Of a stretch of DNA of 43,622 nt, positions 1,388 through 13,045 are shown piece after piece (position 1 is the stretch's first letter; every line of letters starts with the position of its first letter). Location of the stretch: the NCBI GenBank assembly GCA_902776375.1, contig CACYPV010000022.1, forward strand, positions 1-43,622, written 5' to 3'. The notes beneath the pieces are model-generated. The model had not been told where the DNA came from and ran no database searches. It saw only the letters and a list, made by a program, of their open reading frames with translations. Both the position numbers and the translations under genes were made by a program. This DNA comes from an uncultured Ruminococcus sp. GTDB taxonomy: Bacteria > Bacillota > Clostridia > Oscillospirales > Acutalibacteraceae.

Positions 1388-1406
1388 AGAACCCGAGGTG
1401 AGGAAA

Positions 1407-2126
1407 ATGAAAATGCAGATTAAAGAATTCGCGGAGCTGACAGGTGTGAGCGTGCGCACGCTTCACTACTATGACGAAATCGGTTTGCTGAAACCGTCCG
1501 AGGTCGACGCGAAAAACGGATACCGTTTTTATGACGAAAGGTCTCTAGAGCGAATGCGGGAAATATTATTTTACCGCGAGCTGGATTTTTCGCTGAAAAC
1601 GATTGCGGAGATTTTATCTTCACCCGACTACAATAAACAGCAGGCGCTGTCACGTCAAAGGAAGCTGCTGCTATCGAAAAAAGAACGGCTGGAGCAGCTG
1701 ATTGCGGCAATCGACAGCGTGGAGAAAGGAGAAGGTTTTATGACAACAAATAACGACTACGAAGCCCTGAAAAATCAATACGCTGAGGAAGTAAAACAAC
1801 GTTGGGGCAACACCGACGCGTACAAAGAAAACCAACAGCGAAACACGGATTTCAGCAAGGCGGCGGCTTTGCTTGACGCGGTCTTTGAGGAATTTGCCGA
1901 ACTCAACCGCAGCGGTACTTCACCAAACGATGAACCCGCGAAAATACAGGTTGAAAAATTACAGCAGTGTATCACCGACAACTTCTACACCTGCACAAAC
2001 GAAATCCTCGCGGGTCTCGGTCAGATGTATGTTGCTGACGAGCGCTTTAAAACAAACATCGACAAACACGGCGAAGGCACAGCAGAGTTTGTTTCGGCGT
2101 GTATCAAATCATATTTCAAAAAATAA
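1407..2126 (+). CDS. MerR family regulator with TipAS-type ligand domain
   Basis: This is a transcription activator of the MerR/TipA type. The N-terminal winged-helix (about residues 1-70) carries the family signature VRTLHYYDEIGLLKPS and NGYRFYDE; a coiled-coil dimerisation helix follows (about 75-110). From about residue 118 a TipAS domain begins (NQYAEEVKQRWGNTDAYKE), which in TipA-like proteins binds thiopeptides and other hydrophobic drugs. I place the start at ATG 1407, behind GAGGTGAGG; an in-frame ATG at 1413 and a GTG at 1398 are alternatives. The gene is monocistronic: its own 19-bp-spacer promoter lies upstream and a strong terminator follows the stop. It probably senses a drug-like compound and activates itself and unlinked efflux genes; no efflux gene is adjacent. 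Confidence 0.88.
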   Translation: MKMQIKEFAELTGVSVRTLHYYDEIGLLKPSEVDAKNGYRFYDERSLERMREILFYRELDFSLKTIAEILSSPDYNKQQALSRQRKLLLSKKERLEQLIAAIDSVEKGEGFMTTNNDYEALKNQYAEEVKQRWGNTDAYKENQQRNTDFSKAAALLDAVFEEFAELNRSGTSPNDEPAKIQVEKLQQCITDNFYTCTNEILAGLGQMYVADERFKTNIDKHGEGTAEFVSACIKSYFKK

Positions 2127-2136
2127 CAGACGTGCA
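2111..2136 (+). repeat. 26-nt direct repeat, copy A (end of MerR gene)
   Basis: The last codons of the MerR gene, its stop and the start of its terminator stem (ATATTTCAAAAA to GACGTGCA) recur at 7842-7867 with 25 of 26 positions identical. The two copies bracket the helicase/671-aa cassette. Confidence 0.85.
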
Positions 2137-2167
2137 AACGGAATTTTAGTTTCGTTTGCACGTTTTT
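2130..2167 (+). terminator. Intrinsic terminator of the MerR gene
   Basis: ACGTGCAAACG (2130-2140) pairs with CGTTTGCACGT (2153-2163) around a 12-nt loop and is followed by a T-run. It closes the transcript immediately after the MerR stop codon. Confidence 0.85.
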
Positions 2168-2319: not shown

Positions 2320-5300
2320 ATGGAACAATATTTAAGAGAGATCATGAGTGTGAACGAGAACGGTTTATATTTGTGTGAGCTGCCAACAGGTTTTGGCAAG
2401 ACATATACATCCGTGAAACTGATTGCGGAATGGGTTTGTAACCACACTTCCGACAGAAAAATAATCTTTCTGACGACGCTGAACAAAAATTTGCCTGAGG
2501 AGGAGTTACGCTTGGCGTTAGGTGAGACGCTTTATGACAAGAATGTGCTCCGTATCCGTTCCAATTTTGACGAGGTGGTTGAAAAACTGCCGACGCTCGC
2601 CATCCCTGAGCAGTTTCAGACAGAGAGTTATCAGCGATTGCTGCGGCGTGTTCAACGGTATCAACGGGCTGTGCTTCACGAAGCAGGGGACAGAGAATAT
2701 ATTGCGGAGCTGGAGAAGCGTGTGAGTGAAGCAGAAAGCGGTTTCAGAAATATGATCACCGAGCATTTACGAAAAGCATTTCCGTCCAAGAACAAACGTC
2801 TGGAAGCGATTCGTCATCAGGATGATTATCGTTGGATCGGCGCGTTATATCCGGCTGTATTTACGGATGATTACCAAGTATTGCTCATGAGCGTAAACAA
2901 GTTTTTGAAAAAGAATTCTGTTCTGACAGAGACAAGCTATGAGTTTATCAAAGCGCCGTTTTTGCAAAACGCAATAGTTTTTATTGATGAATTTGACGCG
3001 ACAAAGGCGACGGTGAAATCAGAGATCATTCAACGTTCTTTAGGTATGAAAAATGATTTTCTGATTTTATTCAGACAGATTCACCGTATGCTCAGCACGC
3101 AGAGTTTGTCACGAAAAATGCACGACGCATGCGCAAAAATAGATAAAAATGAAAAGTCGAAATACACGCTTAAAAATCTCATGCAGGAAGCGAATGAAAT
3201 CGAAGAAAAATATCACATTCGGCTCAGCTACAAAACCGTTGAAAGTACGGTTGACCGAAGGCAAAATTTTCTCTTGAAGGATTCTTCCTTCCATACGGTT
3301 TTGCAGGGCGGCGCGAAATATATCCGTGCGCATATCAATCAACAAGAAAATGTGGTGGATATTCAATTTGAGAACACAAAGCAGTATTTTGCCGGAAAGC
3401 AGAAGGACGATATTGTTATTTACAGCCTGATTCGTGCTATCAACCGGTTTTTGCGGCATTTCAAGGTGTTTCTTTTTGAATGGGAGCGGTATTATCGCAG
3501 TTTGGAAAACGACAGCCGGGACAGCGGCAGAGACCGCATGTCCTTCGAGAACGCAGTTGCGAGTATTATGGACAAGTTTGAATTATCTGTGTCTCAGAGA
3601 AACCTTCTACTTGGAGAGCTGTGCGAGCCGCTGATTTGGTTAAAGGACGAGGACATAATTCCGCACGTATCCTTTTATCAGGACGGCATGGAAATCTATG
3701 AGTTCGAGGACAACGACTCCCATAACGACAGCACTGCCGTCATTTTTATCAAGGTGTATGACACGCCGGAAAAGCTGCTTATTTATTTGGCAAAACAGAG
3801 TCAGGTCATTGGTATTTCCGCGACTGCGGAGATCCCGACGGTAGTAGGTAATTATCACCTACACTATGTAGAAGAAATGCTTGGCAACCTGTTCCATGCG
3901 ACGCCGCAGGAGGTAAAGAAGCGTATTCGTAAAGAAGCGGAAGAAAACAGCCGGCCATACCGTGACGGAAGGATTTCCATTCGATCCGAAATTATCAGCG
4001 CCGATTATGACGGTAAGGAGCTGTGCGAGATTTGTCGAATGATTACCGGTGAAGCGGAAATTGCCGATATCTGCGTCAACCTGATTACCAATCAATCGGT
4101 AGCCCGATACCAAAGCGTACGTTACTGCAATGTTTTCCGCGCGATGACAGAGTTTTGGAAGCACAGCACAATTCAGTCTATGCTTTATCTCGGCATGGCA
4201 CTTCCGAAACATCAAAATTCTGATTTTGATATCGGCTTGATAAAAAAGTTGATGAAGTATGCGATGGTATTATGCGGTTGTGAGGATAAAAAAGAGCATT
4301 TGGTGATTCTCACCGGCGAGGATTTTGACGGGCAGAAGAAAAGGTTAACGGAGCAGCTTTCAAGTGGTGAAAAGCTGTTTGTTATGTCATCCTACAGCAC
4401 CCTCGGCGCCGGACAAAACTTGCAGTACGCTGTCGAAGATCCGCATGATTATATTTGCCTCAGAGAATGTGTAGATCCGTCAGATAAGCGTTTTTTGACC
4501 AAGGATATCGACGCGCTTTATCTTGGAGATGCCACCAATCTTACTACAAACACCTACAGTGAACAACCCATGACAGAAACAGGGCTAATGGAAATGCTTT
4601 TTCAGGTTGAAGAACTGTACAACAACGGAGAACTGAGTTTTTTCGATAAGGATGAAATGATGCGCCTTGCATTTCGCACTTATTTGGGAGAGCACGAAAG
4701 CCGTAATTTATTGTATAAGACAGACAGCGTGAAAATGCAGGCGACCAAATATGTGATTCAGGCAATCGGTAGAATGTGCCGCACCTTTCTCAAAAGTCCG
4801 GAGATTTTTATTTATGCCGAGAAGAATCTGCTGGATAAAATCAGTCCCTATGAAATTCTGCGCCGTGTGACGCCGCCAGAAATGGAAGCGCTTGCACAGC
4901 TATGCTGCAAGCTATCTGTCGAAGAAACAGACGACGAGAGACAATTGCTCAATAACGCGGAACGGATTTCCAGCAACGGTATGCAGAATATCCTTTCTCT
5001 GCTGTCAAGAAGTTGGACAGAGCACAGCATGGAGATTTGGCGAAATCTGAGAGAAACCGTTCTGCGTTATCCCACTGCCTCGTCAGAGGTTCGTGCTGCC
5101 AATTCCGTTGTAAAGGAGCTTTATATCACCGGCGGAGGAAAACGAAACCGCTATCTGTATTCGCAATACTCGGATTATGCCAACGTCACGCTTGAATTTA
5201 ACGATGATGAAATCGGCTTCCGCAACAGCCCGCGCGCAAAAAGAATGGGCGATACCGGAGAAGCAGCAGTTTACCGTATGAATGAGCAGGAGTCAGGTTT

Positions 5301-5802
5301 AACCGCAGCACTGCGATATCGTGGCATGAGGGAGTATTTTCAAACTAAGAATTACGCGCTGAGCTTTGAGGAACAGGAATATTTGCTTAGTCCGGTGCTG
5401 TTCCATAACATTTATAAGGGAGCACTCGGCGAGGTGTGCGGCGCGTTTATTCTGCGGCAGGAAAGAGGCATTATTCTGCGACCGATTGAGGATGCTCAGC
5501 GCTTTGAGTTTTTTGACTTTGAGATGGGCGATGGTGTATATGTTGATTTTAAAAATTGGAAATTGACCTTTCAGAGCGACCGACAAAGCCAGTTGGAAAA
5601 AATCAGCCGCAAGCTTGACGCTATCGGCGGTAAGCGTGTATATATTATCAATTTGTTTGGCTATAGCGGAAAAACGCCGGGGGAGAATCACGACAGACGT
5701 ATTGTAGAAATTCCCGGCTTGATTGACGAAAACGGAAGAGTCATACGCAATAATTTGAATTGGATAAAGGAGGAAGACGACAGTGTTGACAAACAGGTTT
5801 GA
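2320..5802 (+). CDS. Large SF2-like helicase with C-terminal PD-(D/E)xK-type nuclease domain
   Basis: This 1160-residue protein joins a helicase to a nuclease, a pattern typical of anti-phage effectors. Helicase motifs appear in order: Walker A LPTGFGKT (21-28), motif Ia IIFLTTLN (48-55), motif II as DEFD (223-226), motif III as SAT (500-502), a motif V-like SYSTLGAGQN (691-700) and motif VI QAIGRMCRT (814-822). About 270 residues separate II and III, a large and partly helical insertion. There is no four-cysteine Fe-S cluster of the DinG/XPD kind between motifs I and II. At the C terminus, GALGEVCGAF (E1038) and YVDFKNWK (D1076, K1078) give the E...D-x-K arrangement of restriction-type nucleases. 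The ATG is preceded by TATGGAGG. The gene overlaps the next by 20 bp, so the two products are probably coupled. I do not match it to a named defence system. Confidence 0.8.
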   Translation: MEQYLREIMSVNENGLYLCELPTGFGKTYTSVKLIAEWVCNHTSDRKIIFLTTLNKNLPEEELRLALGETLYDKNVLRIRSNFDEVVEKLPTLAIPEQFQTESYQRLLRRVQRYQRAVLHEAGDREYIAELEKRVSEAESGFRNMITEHLRKAFPSKNKRLEAIRHQDDYRWIGALYPAVFTDDYQVLLMSVNKFLKKNSVLTETSYEFIKAPFLQNAIVFIDEFDATKATVKSEIIQRSLGMKNDFLILFRQIHRMLSTQSLSRKMHDACAKIDKNEKSKYTLKNLMQEANEIEEKYHIRLSYKTVESTVDRRQNFLLKDSSFHTVLQGGAKYIRAHINQQENVVDIQFENTKQYFAGKQKDDIVIYSLIRAINRFLRHFKVFLFEWERYYRSLENDSRDSGRDRMSFENAVASIMDKFELSVSQRNLLLGELCEPLIWLKDEDIIPHVSFYQDGMEIYEFEDNDSHNDSTAVIFIKVYDTPEKLLIYLAKQSQVIGISATAEIPTVVGNYHLHYVEEMLGNLFHATPQEVKKRIRKEAEENSRPYRDGRISIRSEIISADYDGKELCEICRMITGEAEIADICVNLITNQSVARYQSVRYCNVFRAMTEFWKHSTIQSMLYLGMALPKHQNSDFDIGLIKKLMKYAMVLCGCEDKKEHLVILTGEDFDGQKKRLTEQLSSGEKLFVMSSYSTLGAGQNLQYAVEDPHDYICLRECVDPSDKRFLTKDIDALYLGDATNLTTNTYSEQPMTETGLMEMLFQVEELYNNGELSFFDKDEMMRLAFRTYLGEHESRNLLYKTDSVKMQATKYVIQAIGRMCRTFLKSPEIFIYAEKNLLDKISPYEILRRVTPPEMEALAQLCCKLSVEETDDERQLLNNAERISSNGMQNILSLLSRSWTEHSMEIWRNLRETVLRYPTASSEVRAANSVVKELYITGGGKRNRYLYSQYSDYANVTLEFNDDEIGFRNSPRAKRMGDTGEAAVYRMNEQESGLTAALRYRGMREYFQTKNYALSFEEQEYLLSPVLFHNIYKGALGEVCGAFILRQERGIILRPIEDAQRFEFFDFEMGDGVYVDFKNWKLTFQSDRQSQLEKISRKLDAIGGKRVYIINLFGYSGKTPGENHDRRIVEIPGLIDENGRVIRNNLNWIKEEDDSVDKQV

Positions 5803-7798
5803 AGTGACTTTTGACTATGAAAACATCAACCGAGATTTTGACATTTACGCGGTAACAAAGGAATCAAAAAAGCTATATAAGACCAATATTCTCGACCTTC
5901 CGCGTGCACAGTTCCATGCAAGAGCAGTGCAATATTTATGGGGAGCTACAGCGCTTGTCTTGTTTGACAAGCATACGGTACAAGAGAGTGTTTTCCGCAC
6001 TATGCTTCAAGAAAATTACCCCGATGTTAAGGTAATGCGGATAGATGTGATGAACGAATCGGAAAGGCAAAAGTGGTTTAAAAAAGACGAATATCTTCTA
6101 TTAAATCTCTTAATCAACACATTGAAATCACCAAAAAACCAACCGTTTTGTTATAACAACCTTACAGGTGCATTGTACTACCGTTGTTCTGAGTGGAGAT
6201 GGAAGAATTTTATTTGGTTTTTAAACATTCATTTTGATTACGATATGCTGTTGCAGCTTTCTGTCACAACTTTTTTGAGAGTGACAAAAAATGGCAACTA
6301 TTTGTTTGACGAAAACACCGGTTCCTTCCGCAAACGGCTGAGCGTGGATGACTGCCGTGGGGAACTGTATATCAAACATTCCTATTTGAAAAAACATAAT
6401 ACAGTGGATTTTATCCGCTATAGGGATTTTCAGGAATTTTGCAAAAGCAAGCTCGGCGTCATGGAGCGGTTTTTGCGTGACGTCAAAGAAAAGCTCGGAA
6501 ATTATCTGACGCTAAAGGCGGCTTTACCGGGAGAAACGACGATTGTGAAACCTAAAAAGCGGAGCAACAGCGATGACAATATCAAGCGCCTTCTTGAAGA
6601 TTACAGCCTGAATATTTCTGACTGTGTCGACAGTGAATTATCAAAAGATGTTATTGTACAGTTGGTACATAAGCTATGGGAAAAATATCACGTAGAGGTG
6701 CAGATAGGTAATTTGCAGAAGGGCATGCTGAATCTGCGTATTATCCATAACGGAAACTATTACGGAGACCACGAGGAGCTTCATGATCCTCACGAGGACG
6801 ATGTCAGCGGATATATTGTCCAGCATGTGACGGTGGAGGACTTTGTCAAAAAAACAACCGGAGAGATTGCCAAACACGGTTTTCAAAAGATTATGGAAGA
6901 ACTGCTGATAAAAACGGACAATCAACTGCGGAAAATGACGGCATTTGACTGGGAAAGCTTGCAATTAAGTCACCCATATTTATTTGCTGTCCGGCGGCGC
7001 GATCCGGACGATTCCGATAAGAAGGAATATGTTTACTATCAGGTTAAGGTCAATCCTGACGGCAGTCTGGATTATGATTGCTTTAACAGCAAAGAGGACG
7101 TAGCATTCGAGAAACACGAAAAGTTGATTCGTGCGTATGAGCGGCTTGCAGCAGCTTTATACCGGCAGGGAAGTGAAATCGAATGTGTCATGGAAGATGG
7201 TGAGGGCAATTATCACGCTATTGGAAAAACAAAGGAATTCACACGTCCGGATACTTCCATCTTGTATGATGTGCTCTGTCAGACCCAGCCAAAAGCCGTT
7301 GTCCCGAAAGAGAAATTGCTCAGCTGTCTCGACACCTTTATTGCGACCCATGAAGCGCAAAAGTCGGCTGCTCTTGCGCTGAAGACGCAGATTCTGCAGT
7401 ATGAGGATATTCCGACAAAAGGAAGTATTCACAAGATGATGAATATGAAATCCAATGATAATATTATCCTGAACCGCTGGCTGCACGAGGAATGCGGTCT
7501 ATGGATTTATTCTGAATTTAAAAGCGCGGCAAGCGGTACTGAAATGAAAAATCTCGAAAAGATTCAATACTATCCCGACAAGTGGGACGGTAATAGTTTT
7601 TACTACTTTGTTGGTTCAAAAAACGGAGCAAAAGATACCGTCAGCCGCGCGTGTACTATACGCCGTGTGACGTCTGAAACCAAACTGATCACGCCGGATT
7701 TCCTGTTCTCTATGCTGGCGGTTGATTTTGTTCGTCACGGGCAGTATACGGTGATTCCGTTTCCTATAAAATATCTGCGGGAATACTATAAATTGTAA
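5783..7798 (+). CDS. Unassigned 671-aa partner of the helicase-nuclease
   Basis: I cannot assign this protein to a family. It starts at GTG 5783 (or TTG 5786) behind AAAGGAGG, inside the end of the helicase gene. It is soluble, with no membrane segment, no zinc cluster and no Walker motif. Notable stretches are RVTKNGNYLFDENTGSF (166-182), MLNLRIIHNGNYY (315-327) followed by DPHEDD and YIVQHVTVEDF (344-354), then FYYFVGSKNG (606-615), and a C terminus ending QYTVIPFPIKYLREYYKL. The Pro-x-Pro end, with a strand-rich region before it, is loosely like the C-terminal tail of Argonaute/PIWI proteins. Prokaryotic PIWI-RE loci are known to pair a PIWI-like protein with a helicase and a restriction-type nuclease, which is the set seen here. 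That link is a weak inference: no catalytic tetrad can be placed by eye. Confidence 0.7.
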   Translation: MLTNRFEVTFDYENINRDFDIYAVTKESKKLYKTNILDLPRAQFHARAVQYLWGATALVLFDKHTVQESVFRTMLQENYPDVKVMRIDVMNESERQKWFKKDEYLLLNLLINTLKSPKNQPFCYNNLTGALYYRCSEWRWKNFIWFLNIHFDYDMLLQLSVTTFLRVTKNGNYLFDENTGSFRKRLSVDDCRGELYIKHSYLKKHNTVDFIRYRDFQEFCKSKLGVMERFLRDVKEKLGNYLTLKAALPGETTIVKPKKRSNSDDNIKRLLEDYSLNISDCVDSELSKDVIVQLVHKLWEKYHVEVQIGNLQKGMLNLRIIHNGNYYGDHEELHDPHEDDVSGYIVQHVTVEDFVKKTTGEIAKHGFQKIMEELLIKTDNQLRKMTAFDWESLQLSHPYLFAVRRRDPDDSDKKEYVYYQVKVNPDGSLDYDCFNSKEDVAFEKHEKLIRAYERLAAALYRQGSEIECVMEDGEGNYHAIGKTKEFTRPDTSILYDVLCQTQPKAVVPKEKLLSCLDTFIATHEAQKSAALALKTQILQYEDIPTKGSIHKMMNMKSNDNIILNRWLHEECGLWIYSEFKSAASGTEMKNLEKIQYYPDKWDGNSFYYFVGSKNGAKDTVSRACTIRRVTSETKLITPDFLFSMLAVDFVRHGQYTVIPFPIKYLREYYKL

Positions 7799-7841
7799 AA
7801 CTTAGGTTAAGTATGATCTTATAATTTGCTATAATTTAAGC

Positions 7842-7867
7842 ATATTTCAAAAATTAACAGACGTGCA
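7842..7867 (+). repeat. 26-nt direct repeat, copy B (right edge of cassette)
   Basis: This is a near-identical copy (one mismatch) of 2111-2136, lying 43 bases after the 671-aa gene. It continues into a decayed version of the MerR terminator stem (ACGTGCAG ... CTGCTTGCATGT). It is therefore a displaced copy of the end of a MerR-like gene rather than a random match. Confidence 0.8.
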
Positions 7868-7975
7868 GGTGTGGTTTGTATTCTGCTTGCATGTTCTTTC
7901 GTTTTTCAGTTGATTTGAATGGAATTATATATTAATAACAAAAGAGGTTTTTCTTGATTTATTATAAATTTTAGA

Positions 7976-9295
7976 TTAGCTTTTGATAATCGGAATTGAC
8001 ATCAGCTCTCTCGTCCTAACAGCGATTTGCTTTTCGATAGCGGTCAGTCTTTCCTCCGGAAGATTGATTGACGGGTGTCTTTCAAATTTGAAATTAAGCA
8101 GTTTGCGGAGCTGAGATTTTTGTTTACTTCCCATTACCGCCTTACAGACTTCTTCAAAGGAAACACCGTAAGGCGTAGTCCTTGTCTTTGCGTACTCATC
8201 GAGATTATTGATGTCGTCCGCCATGGCAAAGTTAAACAAAGATAATCCGTTATCAAATATCGGTGCGGGCTTCAAAATTTTGCCTGTATGGTTGTCGCGC
8301 AATACGCCGAAGTTACCGAAATGCCTGTCCTCGTTGTAAATCACCGCGTCAAACACCAACATACTGCATAACGCGTCGTAAAATTCCTTGCCGAGCGAGG
8401 AGTAATAATCCAGCGCGTTTTTCAGCGTCCTGTCATTTATCAAACGGCTGATCGGTACGAAAGATGTGTTGATATCCGTAAACAGCCGGCATTTTGAGGC
8501 GAGGATGCCCTTCCAGTTTTCAAGGTCGTATTCGATACAGTCCAGCCCCATCGCTTTTGCGATTTGACAGGCGTAGTACTCGCTGTAATTCCGCCAAGCC
8601 TTGCGGAGCATACCGTTTGTCGTGAACTCGGGAGATGTGAAAAACGCTTTGTCGGCACTTCCTACGCCTGTGTATGCCACCAGAGACAACGCTTCCGAAA
8701 ACGGATTCTCAAACAGGTTGTATAGATCGAATTTTCCGTTGAACTCAACCGGAGTTACCCAATAGCTGTCGTTCAAAGAAAGCCCCAGGCATACGTCAAT
8801 AATTCCCTTCGTATCATTACTGCTTAAGCCGAAGGCTTTTAAAATCTCGTCAACGAACGCTCTGTTTTTTGGAATTACGCGGTGCGAAAGCCATTTGACA
8901 ATCCCTTTTGATGTCAGCTCAATATTGACGGGCAGTAAGTGCATTTTGCTTTCATCAAAGGAGAGCACTTCGGCAACCAAGCCTTCCAAGCCCTTTTCTT
9001 GCAGAGAAAAGGTGACAAGGATTTCGTCATAAAGTTTTAAATGGTATGTGTTAGTCGTTTGTGAGCGCTTTTCTTCCAACAAAACGCTGACGTCTTTGTC
9101 GAGCGCGTTTGAAATTTTTATCAGTAAATCGAGAGTAAGATTTTGACCGCCGTTTTCAATACGGCAAATGTTGGAGCGCTGTGTGCCGACCAATTCGGCA
9201 AGCTGTGCCTGTGACAAACCTTTTTCAAGCCTTGCCTGCGTCAGCTTAGCGACAATCTCCTGGCGTTTTGAGGTAATGTCATTTCTGTCAGTCAT
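7976..9295 (-). CDS. HTH-HipA fusion: XRE DNA-binding domain plus HipA-type kinase
   Basis: The protein joins an XRE-type helix-turn-helix (about residues 14-74: GLSQAQLAELVGTQRSNICRIENG) to a HipA-like kinase domain. HipA kinases phosphorylate proteins, classically glutamyl-tRNA synthetase, and induce dormancy; the HTH part (HipB) is normally a separate antitoxin and repressor. Catalytic signatures are NEDRHFGNFG (321-330, with D323, H325 and N328) and the metal-binding PIFDNG (345-350). The start is ATG 9295 behind AGAAGGTG; the longer frame to 9346 runs through the operator and is rejected. A perfect 26-bp palindrome covers its promoter, indicating autorepression. The canonical HipA P-loop cannot be placed with confidence, so the kinase could be regulatory rather than toxic. 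It is divergent from the broken fic gene. Confidence 0.8.
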   Translation of the reverse strand: MTDRNDITSKRQEIVAKLTQARLEKGLSQAQLAELVGTQRSNICRIENGGQNLTLDLLIKISNALDKDVSVLLEEKRSQTTNTYHLKLYDEILVTFSLQEKGLEGLVAEVLSFDESKMHLLPVNIELTSKGIVKWLSHRVIPKNRAFVDEILKAFGLSSNDTKGIIDVCLGLSLNDSYWVTPVEFNGKFDLYNLFENPFSEALSLVAYTGVGSADKAFFTSPEFTTNGMLRKAWRNYSEYYACQIAKAMGLDCIEYDLENWKGILASKCRLFTDINTSFVPISRLINDRTLKNALDYYSSLGKEFYDALCSMLVFDAVIYNEDRHFGNFGVLRDNHTGKILKPAPIFDNGLSLFNFAMADDINNLDEYAKTRTTPYGVSFEEVCKAVMGSKQKSQLRKLLNFKFERHPSINLPEERLTAIEKQIAVRTRELMSIPIIKS

Positions 9296-9315
9296 CGTTT
9301 TCACCTTCTTTTTTA

Positions 9316-9346
9316 TTATGTTATCATATATGATAACATAAGTCAA
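9316..9346 (-). promoter_or_regulatory. Promoter with perfect 26-bp palindromic operator
   Basis: TTATGTTATCATA (9316-9328) is followed at once by its exact reverse complement (9329-9341). On the minus strand the palindrome fills the 17-bp spacer and -10 (TAACAT, 9318-9323) of a promoter whose -35 is TTGACT (9341-9346). A dimer of the HTH-HipA protein bound here would block RNA polymerase. Confidence 0.85.
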
Positions 9347-9462: not shown

Positions 9463-10517
9463 ATGAGCGATAAAATTCCATTCGATTTTGACGAATATAT
9501 CCGTCAAAGCGAGCCCTCGAAACAGAAAAAGGGATACATTTGGCAGACGGCTATCGGTTTGCAGGATGTTGACGGATTGAAGCCGTCGGAATATTTGATC
9601 GAGACTGCGAAGAAGAATATTGACGGCGATATCACTCTTGAAGAAGCCAACGACCTGATCCACGGCTACTATGAGAGCAAAACCGCGCGGCTTGATGTTG
9701 ACGAACGTACAGAGGAAGCGGACAAGGTTTCCGCGCGTATCGCTCAGCTCTGAGGATGCGTTTGTTTTCTCGCCCAATCAGTTGATTTCCATACATCGCC
9801 GGTTATTTGACGGCATTTATAAATTTGCCGGCGTTATCCGGGATTACAATATTTCTAAACGCGAATGGGTTCTGCGAGGCAAATCGGTGGTATACGCAGG
9901 TTATGACACTATCAAAGATACCATGAACTATGATTTTGATTTGGAGAAGAGCTTTGATTACAGCGCTCTCAGCATAGACGAAAGTATTAAACACATCACC
10001 GGATTTATCGCGAATATGTGGCAGATACATCCGTTCGGCGAGGGCAATACAAGAACGACAGCTGTATTCGCGATCAAGTATCTTCGCTCTCTCGGATTCA
10101 ACGTCACAAATACTCTTTTCGCCGACAACTCGTGGTATTTCAGAAACGCGCTTGTAAGAGCGAATTACGCTGATATTCAAAATGGCATTTACGAAGACAG
10201 GAGCTATCTTGAAAAGTTTTTTAGAAATCTGATTCTCGGTGAAAAGAACGAGCTGAAAAACTGTTATCTATTGATTGGAGCGGATTTATCGACGACTGAA
10301 AAAATCGGCGATAACGCGAAAATCGGCGATAAACACACGCACGAAGCAGACGATTCTCGATTATATGAAGGGCAAGGAGTTTGTAAAAGCAAGTGATGTT
10401 GCCAAAGCGATCAATCTCAAACCTTCGCGCACAAGAGATTACTTGGGTGAGTTAGTAAAGGATGGTTTAATTATCGCCGAGGGTTCTAATCGAAACAGAA
10501 TATATAAACTGAAATAA
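9463..10517 (+). pseudogene. Fic-domain protein, interrupted by two frameshifts
   Basis: Three overlapping frames together give one Fic family protein of about 350 residues, an AMP-transferase that adds nucleotides to target-protein hydroxyls. Frame 1 (9463-9753) gives the N-terminal part ending VSARIAQL. A +1 shift near 9740-9755 leads to frame 2, with SEDAFVFSP and the active-site loop HPFGEGNTRT (10028-10057; catalytic His at 10028). A second +1 shift near 10325-10345 leads to frame 3, which ends at 10517 with a C-terminal winged-helix (KASDVAKAINLKPSRTRDYLGELVKDGLI). The joined sequence is continuous with no missing block, so decay is recent or the shifts are sequence errors. The first shift sits at CUC-UGA, a shifty-stop arrangement reminiscent of, but weaker than, the prfB frameshift site. 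Confidence 0.8.
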
Positions 10518-10561: not shown

Positions 10562-13045
10562 ATGGCTTTTTTCGGGGTGTTTTATCTTGATAAGGAAAAG
10601 GATATCATCGTTTCGCTGGACATGACGGACGGCGTGCTTCGCTATGTTCTGCGCACTCCGAATCACGCGAAGGGCAACCTTATTACCAACCTTGCCTCGC
10701 TGTGCAAGCTGCCGCTTAGCGTGGGCGACGACGGGCTGAAGGTCATTCGCGGCGAGGTACCATGCTATGTTGACGAGCGCAACCGCGAGGTTTACGTTCT
10801 GCGGTTCGCCGACACAAAGGTAGCCAACATCTACTCCGACGGCACGATCGAGCGCAAGGCGTACATTCCAGCCATCTCAAAAACGCTGATGAGCCAGACC
10901 AAGGATTACCGCCTTGACGCTTGGAACACGCTTGTAAAGACCTACATCCGCCGCGAGTACAAGTTCCGCACCGACCTGCATACCCACATGAACGCTAACC
11001 TCGACCCCGATCTGCTGATAGCGCTCGGTATTTTTTATCAGATCCGCTATCCGCTTTACTATATCAAAAAGCTCGGTCTGCGCTGCACAGACGTTCAGCG
11101 TGATTCGCTGAAAACACAGCGCGCCGAGGTCGCGAAGCGCTTTGAAGGCACGTCCTTGACCGGCAAGAACCTCACGCGCAAAATCGACGACAACACCTTT
11201 ATCAACTTTGCCGATCTTATTCTGAACAACCTTGAAAACGCGGAGTACAACATCCCGCGCATCCGCGCCTCGCTGACTGTTTTGAAGGACGGTCAGGCGG
11301 TGTTCACCAACCTTGAAAAGGTCTATTTGTACCGCTACGTGTTCACAAAGGGGCAGCCGCACGACGAGAAGATATCAATCGACAATTACAGCGATATACC
11401 CGACAGCGACATTTCACGCGCAGTGGGGCAGATGATACGCGACAGCCAAGACCCCTCCTATGCCGACTTAACTCTGTTCCAAAACAAGCTTTTGTGGATC
11501 GCGCGCAGCAGTCAAAGGCGCGGCGTGCGGTACATGGAGATATCGGACACCACGCTCGTTAAGCCCGACGGCGCGGCGCACATGCTGGCTCAGGCGCACG
11601 CGATCATGCCGCGGATAATCAGGGAAACAGGCGTTATCATCCGCTTTTTGGCGGCGATAAGAAGGATACCGCTTACCATAGTGCGCGACAAGGCGACCGT
11701 CGCCGAGGACACCCAAGCACAGCTTGGCGTTATCCGCGCCATAGCAGCCGACCCGTATGTGGCGGGCAGCGACATAATAGGCGAGGAGATCAACGATATC
11801 CGCGAGCTGCGCCCCGTTTTGCGCGAGCTCGTGGCGATAGCGGGGGAGAACAAGGGCTTTGTCATAAGGATACACGCGGGCGAAAACGACGGTCTGCGCG
11901 ACAATGTTGCAAACAGCCTTGCCTGTGTGCGCGAGGCGCTCGCCGAGGGTCAGCCGATGCCGAGCCTTCGTATAGGTCACGGGCTGTACACCGCCAACCT
12001 GCACTCGCAAAAGGGCAGACAGCTCATCGAGGAGCTTCGTGAAAGCGGCGCGGTGCTTGAATTCCAGCTCACTTCGAACGTTAGGCTAAACAACCTCAGC
12101 GCGCTTGGCAAGCATCCGCTCAAAGAGTATCTGCGCGGCGGCGTAAGCTGCGTTCAGGGCACTGACGGCGGCGCGATCTACGGCACGGATTCCATAGACG
12201 AACAGCTCGCGCTGGAGCGTCTGCTTGACCTCAGCTATGACGACATGATGAAGATGCGGCAAGCTGAGGACGAGGTTCTCAAGCAAAGCCTTAGTTCTTT
12301 TAAAGAAAAATCAGACCTGTTCATTTCCGCTTTGGACGGTAAACAGGTCGAGGAATATTTGCAGGATAGAATTTGGCAGCGCTCGGCGCGCGGGGGCGGT
12401 ATCGTCATAGCTCCCCAAAAGCTCAGCAGCGCCGACTGCCTTAAAGCCCAAATACGCGATATCCCTACAGATAAGGTGCCGGTTGTCGTGATGGGCGGCA
12501 GCTTCAACAGCAGCCGCAAGTCCACACGCGTAAAGGAGCCGCAGCTTGCCCTGCTGAAAAGGCTGACAGAATGTCTTGACCCCGAGCGCGTCTGCTTTGT
12601 TATCGGCAGCCGTCTGACGGGCTACGAGCGCGAGCTGTGCGAGCTTGCCGCTAACCGCTTTGAGGTGTTCGCGATAGTCCCCACACGCGTTACGCCGCTT
12701 GAAGCCAAAAGGCTGAAAAACAGCGGTGTGGGCGTGCGCGTTTCAATCGAGCCTACGCGCATGGGGCTGTACAAAAGCTTTGCTTACGAGATATTCAAGC
12801 GCCGCCCCTCGGTGGTGATAGCCTTCGACGGCAACTCGGCAGGCGCAAATACCATTCAGGAAGCGAAGAACGGCAAAAGGGAAGCGCGTATTTTCGTCAG
12901 CCGCCGCGCAAAGGTGCTCTATGCCAAGGCTCAAACGATACAGGGCTACGTGAGCGTTTTCGACGGCGAGGAAGCCGCCGAGAGCATCATGCGGTCGGTC
13001 GAGAGAGTTTGGAAGCAAATGGGGGAGGTAGAAGCTAGAGGCTAG
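10562..13045 (+). CDS. Adenosine-deaminase-like enzyme fused to a SLOG/DprA-like nucleotide-binding domain
   Basis: This 827-residue protein has three parts. Residues 1-130 are an unrecognised N-terminal domain. Residues about 135-580 follow the adenosine deaminase barrel: HxH zinc ligands DLHTH (H140, H142), HAGE (H438, E441), IGHG (H473), LTSN (505-506) and TDGGAIYGTD (D535). The second Asp of the usual DDP motif, which contacts the purine in ADA, is Gly536 here, so the substrate may not be adenosine. Residues about 638-815 form a Rossmann-like domain (VVVMGGSFNSS, VCFVIGSRLTGYERELC, VVIAFDGNSAGANTIQEA) resembling SLOG/DprA ligand-sensing domains. Known ADA enzymes are near 350 residues. 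RADAR RdrB deaminases are of comparable length, but no RdrA ATPase is adjacent. The start is set by AGGAGGT at 10551. It lies 44 bp after the fic remnant and may be cotranscribed. Confidence 0.8.
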   Translation: MAFFGVFYLDKEKDIIVSLDMTDGVLRYVLRTPNHAKGNLITNLASLCKLPLSVGDDGLKVIRGEVPCYVDERNREVYVLRFADTKVANIYSDGTIERKAYIPAISKTLMSQTKDYRLDAWNTLVKTYIRREYKFRTDLHTHMNANLDPDLLIALGIFYQIRYPLYYIKKLGLRCTDVQRDSLKTQRAEVAKRFEGTSLTGKNLTRKIDDNTFINFADLILNNLENAEYNIPRIRASLTVLKDGQAVFTNLEKVYLYRYVFTKGQPHDEKISIDNYSDIPDSDISRAVGQMIRDSQDPSYADLTLFQNKLLWIARSSQRRGVRYMEISDTTLVKPDGAAHMLAQAHAIMPRIIRETGVIIRFLAAIRRIPLTIVRDKATVAEDTQAQLGVIRAIAADPYVAGSDIIGEEINDIRELRPVLRELVAIAGENKGFVIRIHAGENDGLRDNVANSLACVREALAEGQPMPSLRIGHGLYTANLHSQKGRQLIEELRESGAVLEFQLTSNVRLNNLSALGKHPLKEYLRGGVSCVQGTDGGAIYGTDSIDEQLALERLLDLSYDDMMKMRQAEDEVLKQSLSSFKEKSDLFISALDGKQVEEYLQDRIWQRSARGGGIVIAPQKLSSADCLKAQIRDIPTDKVPVVVMGGSFNSSRKSTRVKEPQLALLKRLTECLDPERVCFVIGSRLTGYERELCELAANRFEVFAIVPTRVTPLEAKRLKNSGVGVRVSIEPTRMGLYKSFAYEIFKRRPSVVIAFDGNSAGANTIQEAKNGKREARIFVSRRAKVLYAKAQTIQGYVSVFDGEEAAESIMRSVERVWKQMGEVEARG

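Follow-up and report, generated by a model that had tools for sequence, protein, structure and literature searches.

What does the two-gene cassette at positions 2320 to 7798 of this stretch of DNA encode? The stretch, called the window below, is the 43,622-nucleotide contig 22 of an uncultured Ruminococcus sp. assembly (2.6 Mb, 76 contigs, listed completeness of 98.9%). A sequence-only reading had taken the cassette, an 1160-aa helicase-nuclease followed by a 671-aa protein, for a candidate undescribed defence system. Both proteins, however, match DdmDE by profile and by similarity to proteins of solved structure, the second also by fold, and the cassette is very probably a DdmDE plasmid-defence operon, a divergent, intact-looking member of a known system. 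This assignment is carried by the homology of both proteins, the predicted fold of DdmE, the operon structure, the catalytic residues of DdmD and the co-occurrence of the pair. Because each protein falls within a system that already has a name, the claim of novelty falls on the very ground that the sequence-only reading had named as contrary to it. Its description of a helicase-nuclease in a two-gene operon holds, as does a defence role, by homology; "undescribed" and "set apart" do not. The two open reading frames, their coordinates and their overlap are as that reading gave them:

2320..5802, forward strand: ddmD, ATG start, 1160 aa, a superfamily 2 (SF2) helicase carrying a PD-(D/E)XK-type nuclease at its C terminus
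5783..7798, forward strand: ddmE, Argonaute-like protein, 671 aa, GTG start, with profile, Protein Data Bank (PDB) sequence and fold matches
5783..5802, forward strand: ddmD/ddmE frame overlap, 20 bp, the same 20-bp overlap being found in the relative L014

Identity of the two proteins

By its sequence, the 1160-aa protein is DdmD. It matches the PADLOC DdmD profile with an expectation value (E) of 2.3e-40 and, in single-sequence searches, Lactobacillus (L.) casei DdmD (PDB 9ix4; E 8.2e-78) and Vibrio (V.) cholerae DdmD in the PDB (E about 8e-35). Only one copy is present in the window's own assembly. The motifs recognized earlier are all present, to which D1066 is added here:

DdmD motifs, by residue: LPTGFGKT (K27), DEFD 223-226, SAT 500-502, QAIGRMCRT 814-822, E1038, D1066, D1076 and K1078

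Conservation of these residues was assessed in an alignment of 59 rows, comprising the window protein and 58 relatives, and lies far above chance. The SF2 helicase motifs are intact, with D223, E224, S500, A501, Q814, R818 and R821 present in all rows and K27 in 58, the remaining row having a gap; T502 is T in 54 rows and S in five, and T28 is kept in 51, the others carrying S, bar one gap. Likewise, E1038, D1066, D1076 and K1078 are kept in 59/59 rows, and E1038, D1066 and D1076-x-K1078 are the putative PD-(D/E)XK core. The long stretch between helicase motifs II and III had been thought to set the protein apart, but L. casei DdmD aligns through it and the relatives have it too, so this insertion is a trait of the family.

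The 671-aa protein, described earlier as unknown, is DdmE, an Argonaute-like protein, on the evidence of sequence, profile and predicted fold. It had seemed unassignable because it has no match to Pfam or NCBIfam at E up to 1; nevertheless, it matches the PADLOC DdmE profile (E 1.5e-11) and, in sequence searches, the DdmE proteins of L. casei (PDB 9iw3; E 2.3e-24) and V. cholerae (E about 6e-11). An AlphaFold model built from 38 sequences has a mean predicted local distance difference test score of 86.9 and a predicted template modeling score of 0.84. When this model was compared with the PDB by Foldseek, the top six matches were DdmE chains from L. casei and V. cholerae, the best being 9iw3 (E 2.0e-40, template modeling score 0.77, 21-22% identity), and eukaryotic and prokaryotic Argonautes ranked behind them. 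D335 and Q347 never vary across the 44 aligned DdmE rows, and K377 and D379 occur in 98%; judging from a motif of Argonautes, Q347 and K377 may be the residues that hold the 5' end of the guide. Of the alignment columns occupied in 35 or more of the 44 rows, none from residue 390 to 660 reaches 80% D or E, a scarcity that would fit an inactive PIWI domain. DdmE is probably devoid of nuclease activity.

The two genes are arranged as an operon, with a GGAGG stretch shortly 5' of each start, that of ddmE lying inside the end of ddmD. The junction was measured in 41 relatives whose genes are near full length. In 40 of them it lies between an overlap of 226 bp and a gap of 2 bp; the 41st is L042, where DdmE is split. 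The overlap had been read as implying a fixed-ratio complex, which does not follow from it, given this variation in junction length and the V. cholerae complex in the PDB, which is titled 2D:1E.

The review PMC12409362 describes DdmE as an inactive Argonaute that finds plasmid DNA by means of DNA guides and brings in DdmD, whose autoinhibited dimer opens, is loaded onto the non-target strand and moves 5' to 3', and whose nuclease domain cuts DNA, with complete plasmid degradation not settled there. Because the window proteins carry the corresponding domains, the same mechanism would be expected here, with the use of guides, the recruitment of DdmD, its loading on the strand and the loss of the plasmid extrapolated from DdmDE of V. 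cholerae and L. casei. DdmE, as a nuclease-inactive Argonaute-like protein, would take up a short DNA guide and pair with plasmid DNA. The guide-bound DdmE would then recruit DdmD, which would load on the displaced strand, translocate as an SF2 helicase and cut the plasmid through its PD-(D/E)XK domain, with loss of the plasmid as the outcome.

The same two-part design would also fit an antiplasmid system of the ApsAB type, in which an ApsA-like helicase-nuclease is joined to an ApsB-type Argonaute-like partner. Such an identity is very improbable, given that the two partners match DdmD and DdmE and that the ApsB motif, Y-x3-K-xn-QG-xn-K in PMC11096173, is not matched near the conserved Q347: as read from the alignment, E stands at Y327+4 and H follows Q347. 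ApsAB was rejected on these grounds, the comparison with ApsAB itself being that with the published motif. The earlier proposal of an undescribed antiphage system of the Gabija or Hachiman type is slightly less probable still. The helicase and nuclease motifs and the toxin-antitoxin-like neighbours described below would suit such a system, but neither protein has a Gabija or Hachiman profile match in PADLOC at E up to 1, which led to the rejection of both candidates, whereas both DdmDE profiles were found; furthermore, the similarly built ApsAB was inactive against eight phages according to PMC11096173. The absence of a methyltransferase or a HamA/GajA partner, previously taken to set the cassette apart, is normal for DdmDE.

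Pairing and distribution of DdmD and DdmE

If the cassette is a DdmDE operon, how regularly do the two genes occur together? A scan of a genome collection with a five-sequence DdmD alignment yielded at least 60 loci. Three loci (L006, L007 and L024) come from the same genomes as L011 and L013 and do not enter the alignments, L024 being kept among the 60. In 48 of the 60 loci listed, DdmE, whole or in part, adjoins DdmD, which bears out the expected conservation of the gene neighbourhood; nine have no DdmE, and in three (L017, L025 and L065) the contig ends before the position of DdmE. The pairwise-identity matrices of DdmD and DdmE across 41 loci are correlated (Spearman 0.85), a value that none of 1000 permutations reached (maximum 0.33).

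The hosts of the listed loci include Bacillota, Bacteroidota, cyanobacteria, spirochaetes, Fibrobacterota, an alphaproteobacterial metagenome-assembled genome (MAG) and methanogens. In the methanogenic archaea Methanolobus (L032), Methanoculleus (L037) and Methanosarcina (L040), DdmD and DdmE are adjacent and group with the cyanobacterial copies. Closer to the window, DdmD is scarce: it was found in 1/200 genomes of the family, namely, the window's own, in 3/391 of the class and in 3/398 of the phylum, the own genome included in each, or 4/398 of the phylum with a broader profile. The fourth phylum match (G611, E 1.9e-12) was rejected as DdmD, as it covers only 178 model positions at the nuclease end within a 1424-aa frame. 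The two other class matches and the extra phylum match are L011, L012 and L013, in all of which DdmE adjoins DdmD. No protein-level match was found among 50,697 phage records, and 0/169 candidate stretches from viral contigs were a relative; on these empty searches, carriage by known phages was rejected. Four plasmid records contain a match. Each of the three inspected has a 616- to 761-aa gene after DdmD, which is DdmE by similarity in two, the 761-aa gene of L009 being unmatched by the DdmE hidden Markov model (E 0.01).

Several observations weigh against the assignment of the cassette to DdmDE. At the start of the DdmD helicase, there are weak profile matches to Cas3b (7.3e-6), Cas3 (0.0027) and mad8 (0.0043). 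The best stretch of the PADLOC DdmD profile is limited to residues 684-1118, and the DdmE profile reaches residues 198-669 only, partial coverage which implies that the N-terminal parts weakly resemble the V. cholerae proteins. The same DdmE profile detects only 14 of the 44 DdmE rows. The nine listed loci without DdmE show that the pairing is not absolute, and the same-strand gene upstream of the cassette encodes a MerR/TipAS protein, not a WYL regulator as in V. cholerae, although DdmDE does not strictly require the latter. With these points counted, DdmDE remains very probable as set out above. The locus then extends the range of intact-looking DdmDE to Clostridia and reveals a divergent branch of the family, spanning Bacillota, Bacteroidota, cyanobacteria, spirochaetes and methanogenic archaea; given the 14/44 detection rate, plasmid defence by DdmDE is perhaps under-counted.

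DdmD loci without DdmE

Does DdmD ever stand alone? The nine loci without DdmE (L047, L049, L050, L052, L053, L054, L058, L060 and L070), counted among the matches listed, all lie in Bacillota MAGs, which can be incomplete, and the contig of L052 stops 232 bp past DdmD. DdmE was found in 0/9 of these assemblies at E 0.001, compared with 3/3 paired-genome controls; a Piwi-domain match was likewise found in 0/9, with a Pfam model that also misses the window DdmE. The helicase and nuclease residues are retained in all nine solo DdmD proteins, T502 being replaced by S in five, and the six that were run against the PADLOC DdmD profile all matched it.

In a quick tree, in which L009 was counted with the DdmE-bearing loci by gene position, the solo proteins form two groups of three and six, each with a Shimodaira-Hasegawa approximate likelihood ratio support of 100; a long-branch warning applies. 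A constraint placing them in one clade was not rejected (approximately unbiased test, p-AU 0.927; L009, L068 and L069 left out). A restriction-modification gene or a gene like those of cyclic oligonucleotide-based antiphage signaling systems lies within about 8 kb in seven of the nine loci (L047, L049, L050, L052, L053, L054 and L070), the neighbours having been scanned in part. In two loci, a 416-aa, weakly DUF3800-like gene (E 0.17-0.29) lies 24-27 bp 5' of DdmD (L053:8723-9973 and L060:8726-9976); these copies are 89% identical and therefore count as one observation. A small gene pair occurs near DdmD in L049 and L070, and none of the remaining solo loci yielded it.

Tentatively, DdmD may be a separable defence effector that, in a related Bacillota lineage, acts without the Argonaute, alone or with another sensor, a proposal that we regard as plausible but short of probable. 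The weakly DUF3800-like upstream gene may be such a sensor in two of the nine loci. If the proposal holds, immunity by DdmD would have more than one mode, with guide-dependent DdmDE as just one of them. The solo proteins allow the dependence of the helicase-nuclease on an Argonaute, in distinguishing plasmid from chromosome, to be tested directly. No description of DdmD without DdmE was found in listings of the open-access literature; PMC11096173 annotates partner types in a figure and supplement, and no priority is claimed. Of the results reported here, the solo-DdmD lineage is the part worth following, the window locus being ordinary as a system and moderately useful for distribution.

Surroundings of the operon and comparison with known systems

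Do the surroundings of ddmDE in the window mark a defence island, and do they reveal how the operon arrived? The contig contains only 2.3 kb of DNA upstream. The neighbouring features are as follows:

1398..2126, forward strand: MerR-family regulator with a TipAS domain (Pfam TipAS 2.4e-33, MerR_1 2.7e-18), the upstream neighbour of ddmDE, with at most a candidate role in the system
2107..2167, forward strand: left copy of a repeat, spanning the last MerR/TipAS codons and a terminator-like hairpin at 2128-2165
7838..7898, forward strand: right copy of the repeat, 40 bp past the ddmE stop
7976-9346, reverse strand: HTH_3 protein with a weak HipA_C-like part, 456 aa, the first gene past ddmDE and convergent with it
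9463-10396: a VbhA-like gene and a Fic gene that overlap and match two parts of a single PADLOC candidate, PDC-S72 (E 2.2e-39 and 5.9e-92)
10562-13045: protein of 827 aa, adenosine-deaminase domain in residues 351-586 (CARF-ADA profile, E 1.4e-5)

A length of 827 aa is large for a housekeeping deaminase. Further downstream, the genes look ordinary and encode a dockerin, a sigma factor, a TPM-domain protein, an ABC transporter and DegV. Thus, the suggestion of a defence island is borne out in part, by the HipA-like gene and the VbhA/Fic pair, but not by the genes that follow. In nine other loci, a gene within 3.5 kb upstream belongs to one similarity cluster, probably of the WYL type; the three members run against Pfam are WYL proteins, two are short frames near contig ends and two come from near-identical genomes.

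The nearest relative, L014, has DdmD and DdmE proteins each 89% identical to those of the window. At the DNA level, it is 87% identical over ddmDE, compared with 81% over the upstream MerR stretch, and does not align 3' of the ddmE stop. These figures bear on whether the locus is decaying and inactive in its host, a reading that might draw on the single match among 200 family genomes and on the seven relatives in which DdmD or DdmE is fragmented or shortened within the contig (L021, L039, L042, L057, L063, L071 and L073) but that is most improbable, as both frames are open over their full length, the tested catalytic residues are kept and ddmDE is more conserved than its MerR-side flank.

The intact-looking ddmDE operon is bracketed by the imperfect direct repeat listed above, whose copies are 74% identical over 61 nt. 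Over the first 29 nt, they agree at 27 positions, and the next best place in the window agrees at 19/29; a BLAST search of the repeat in its own genome gave E 3.7e-5. The repeat is possibly an insertion scar. A search for an empty site found none: the 26-nt repeat core, with up to six differences allowed, was not found in L014 or in 6/7 same-genus loci, the sole match being in L080, with six differences. The 3' flank of the window aligned to none of these eight loci, seven of them being only 2.3-3.5 kb long. Separately, a transfer-messenger RNA (tmRNA; ssrA) gene is located some 4.5 to 7 kb away from DdmD in L012 (18065-18411), L013 (17754-18117) and L049 (4964-5349). A tmRNA insertion site as a rule was rejected, with only 3/62 loci scanned having this gene.

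How, then, does the operon compare with the systems already described? In V. cholerae, where the gene order is likewise D then E, the DdmDE pair of Vibrio pathogenicity island 2 matches the window pair in sequence for both proteins and in fold for DdmE, the likeness being concentrated in the last two thirds of DdmE and the second half of DdmD. According to the review PMC12409362, a WYL-domain gene lies upstream there, whereas the window has the MerR/TipAS gene. ApsAB of Escherichia coli sequence type 38 is, according to PMC11096173, also an antiplasmid pair of a helicase-nuclease and an Argonaute-like protein, from which the window differs in its DdmE-like 671-aa partner, which does not match the ApsB-type motif. 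The closest known counterpart is L. casei DdmDE (PDB 9ix4, 9iw3 and 9ixm): both proteins are alike and are the top sequence matches, and DdmE is the top match in fold, even though its identity over the fold alignment is 21-22%.

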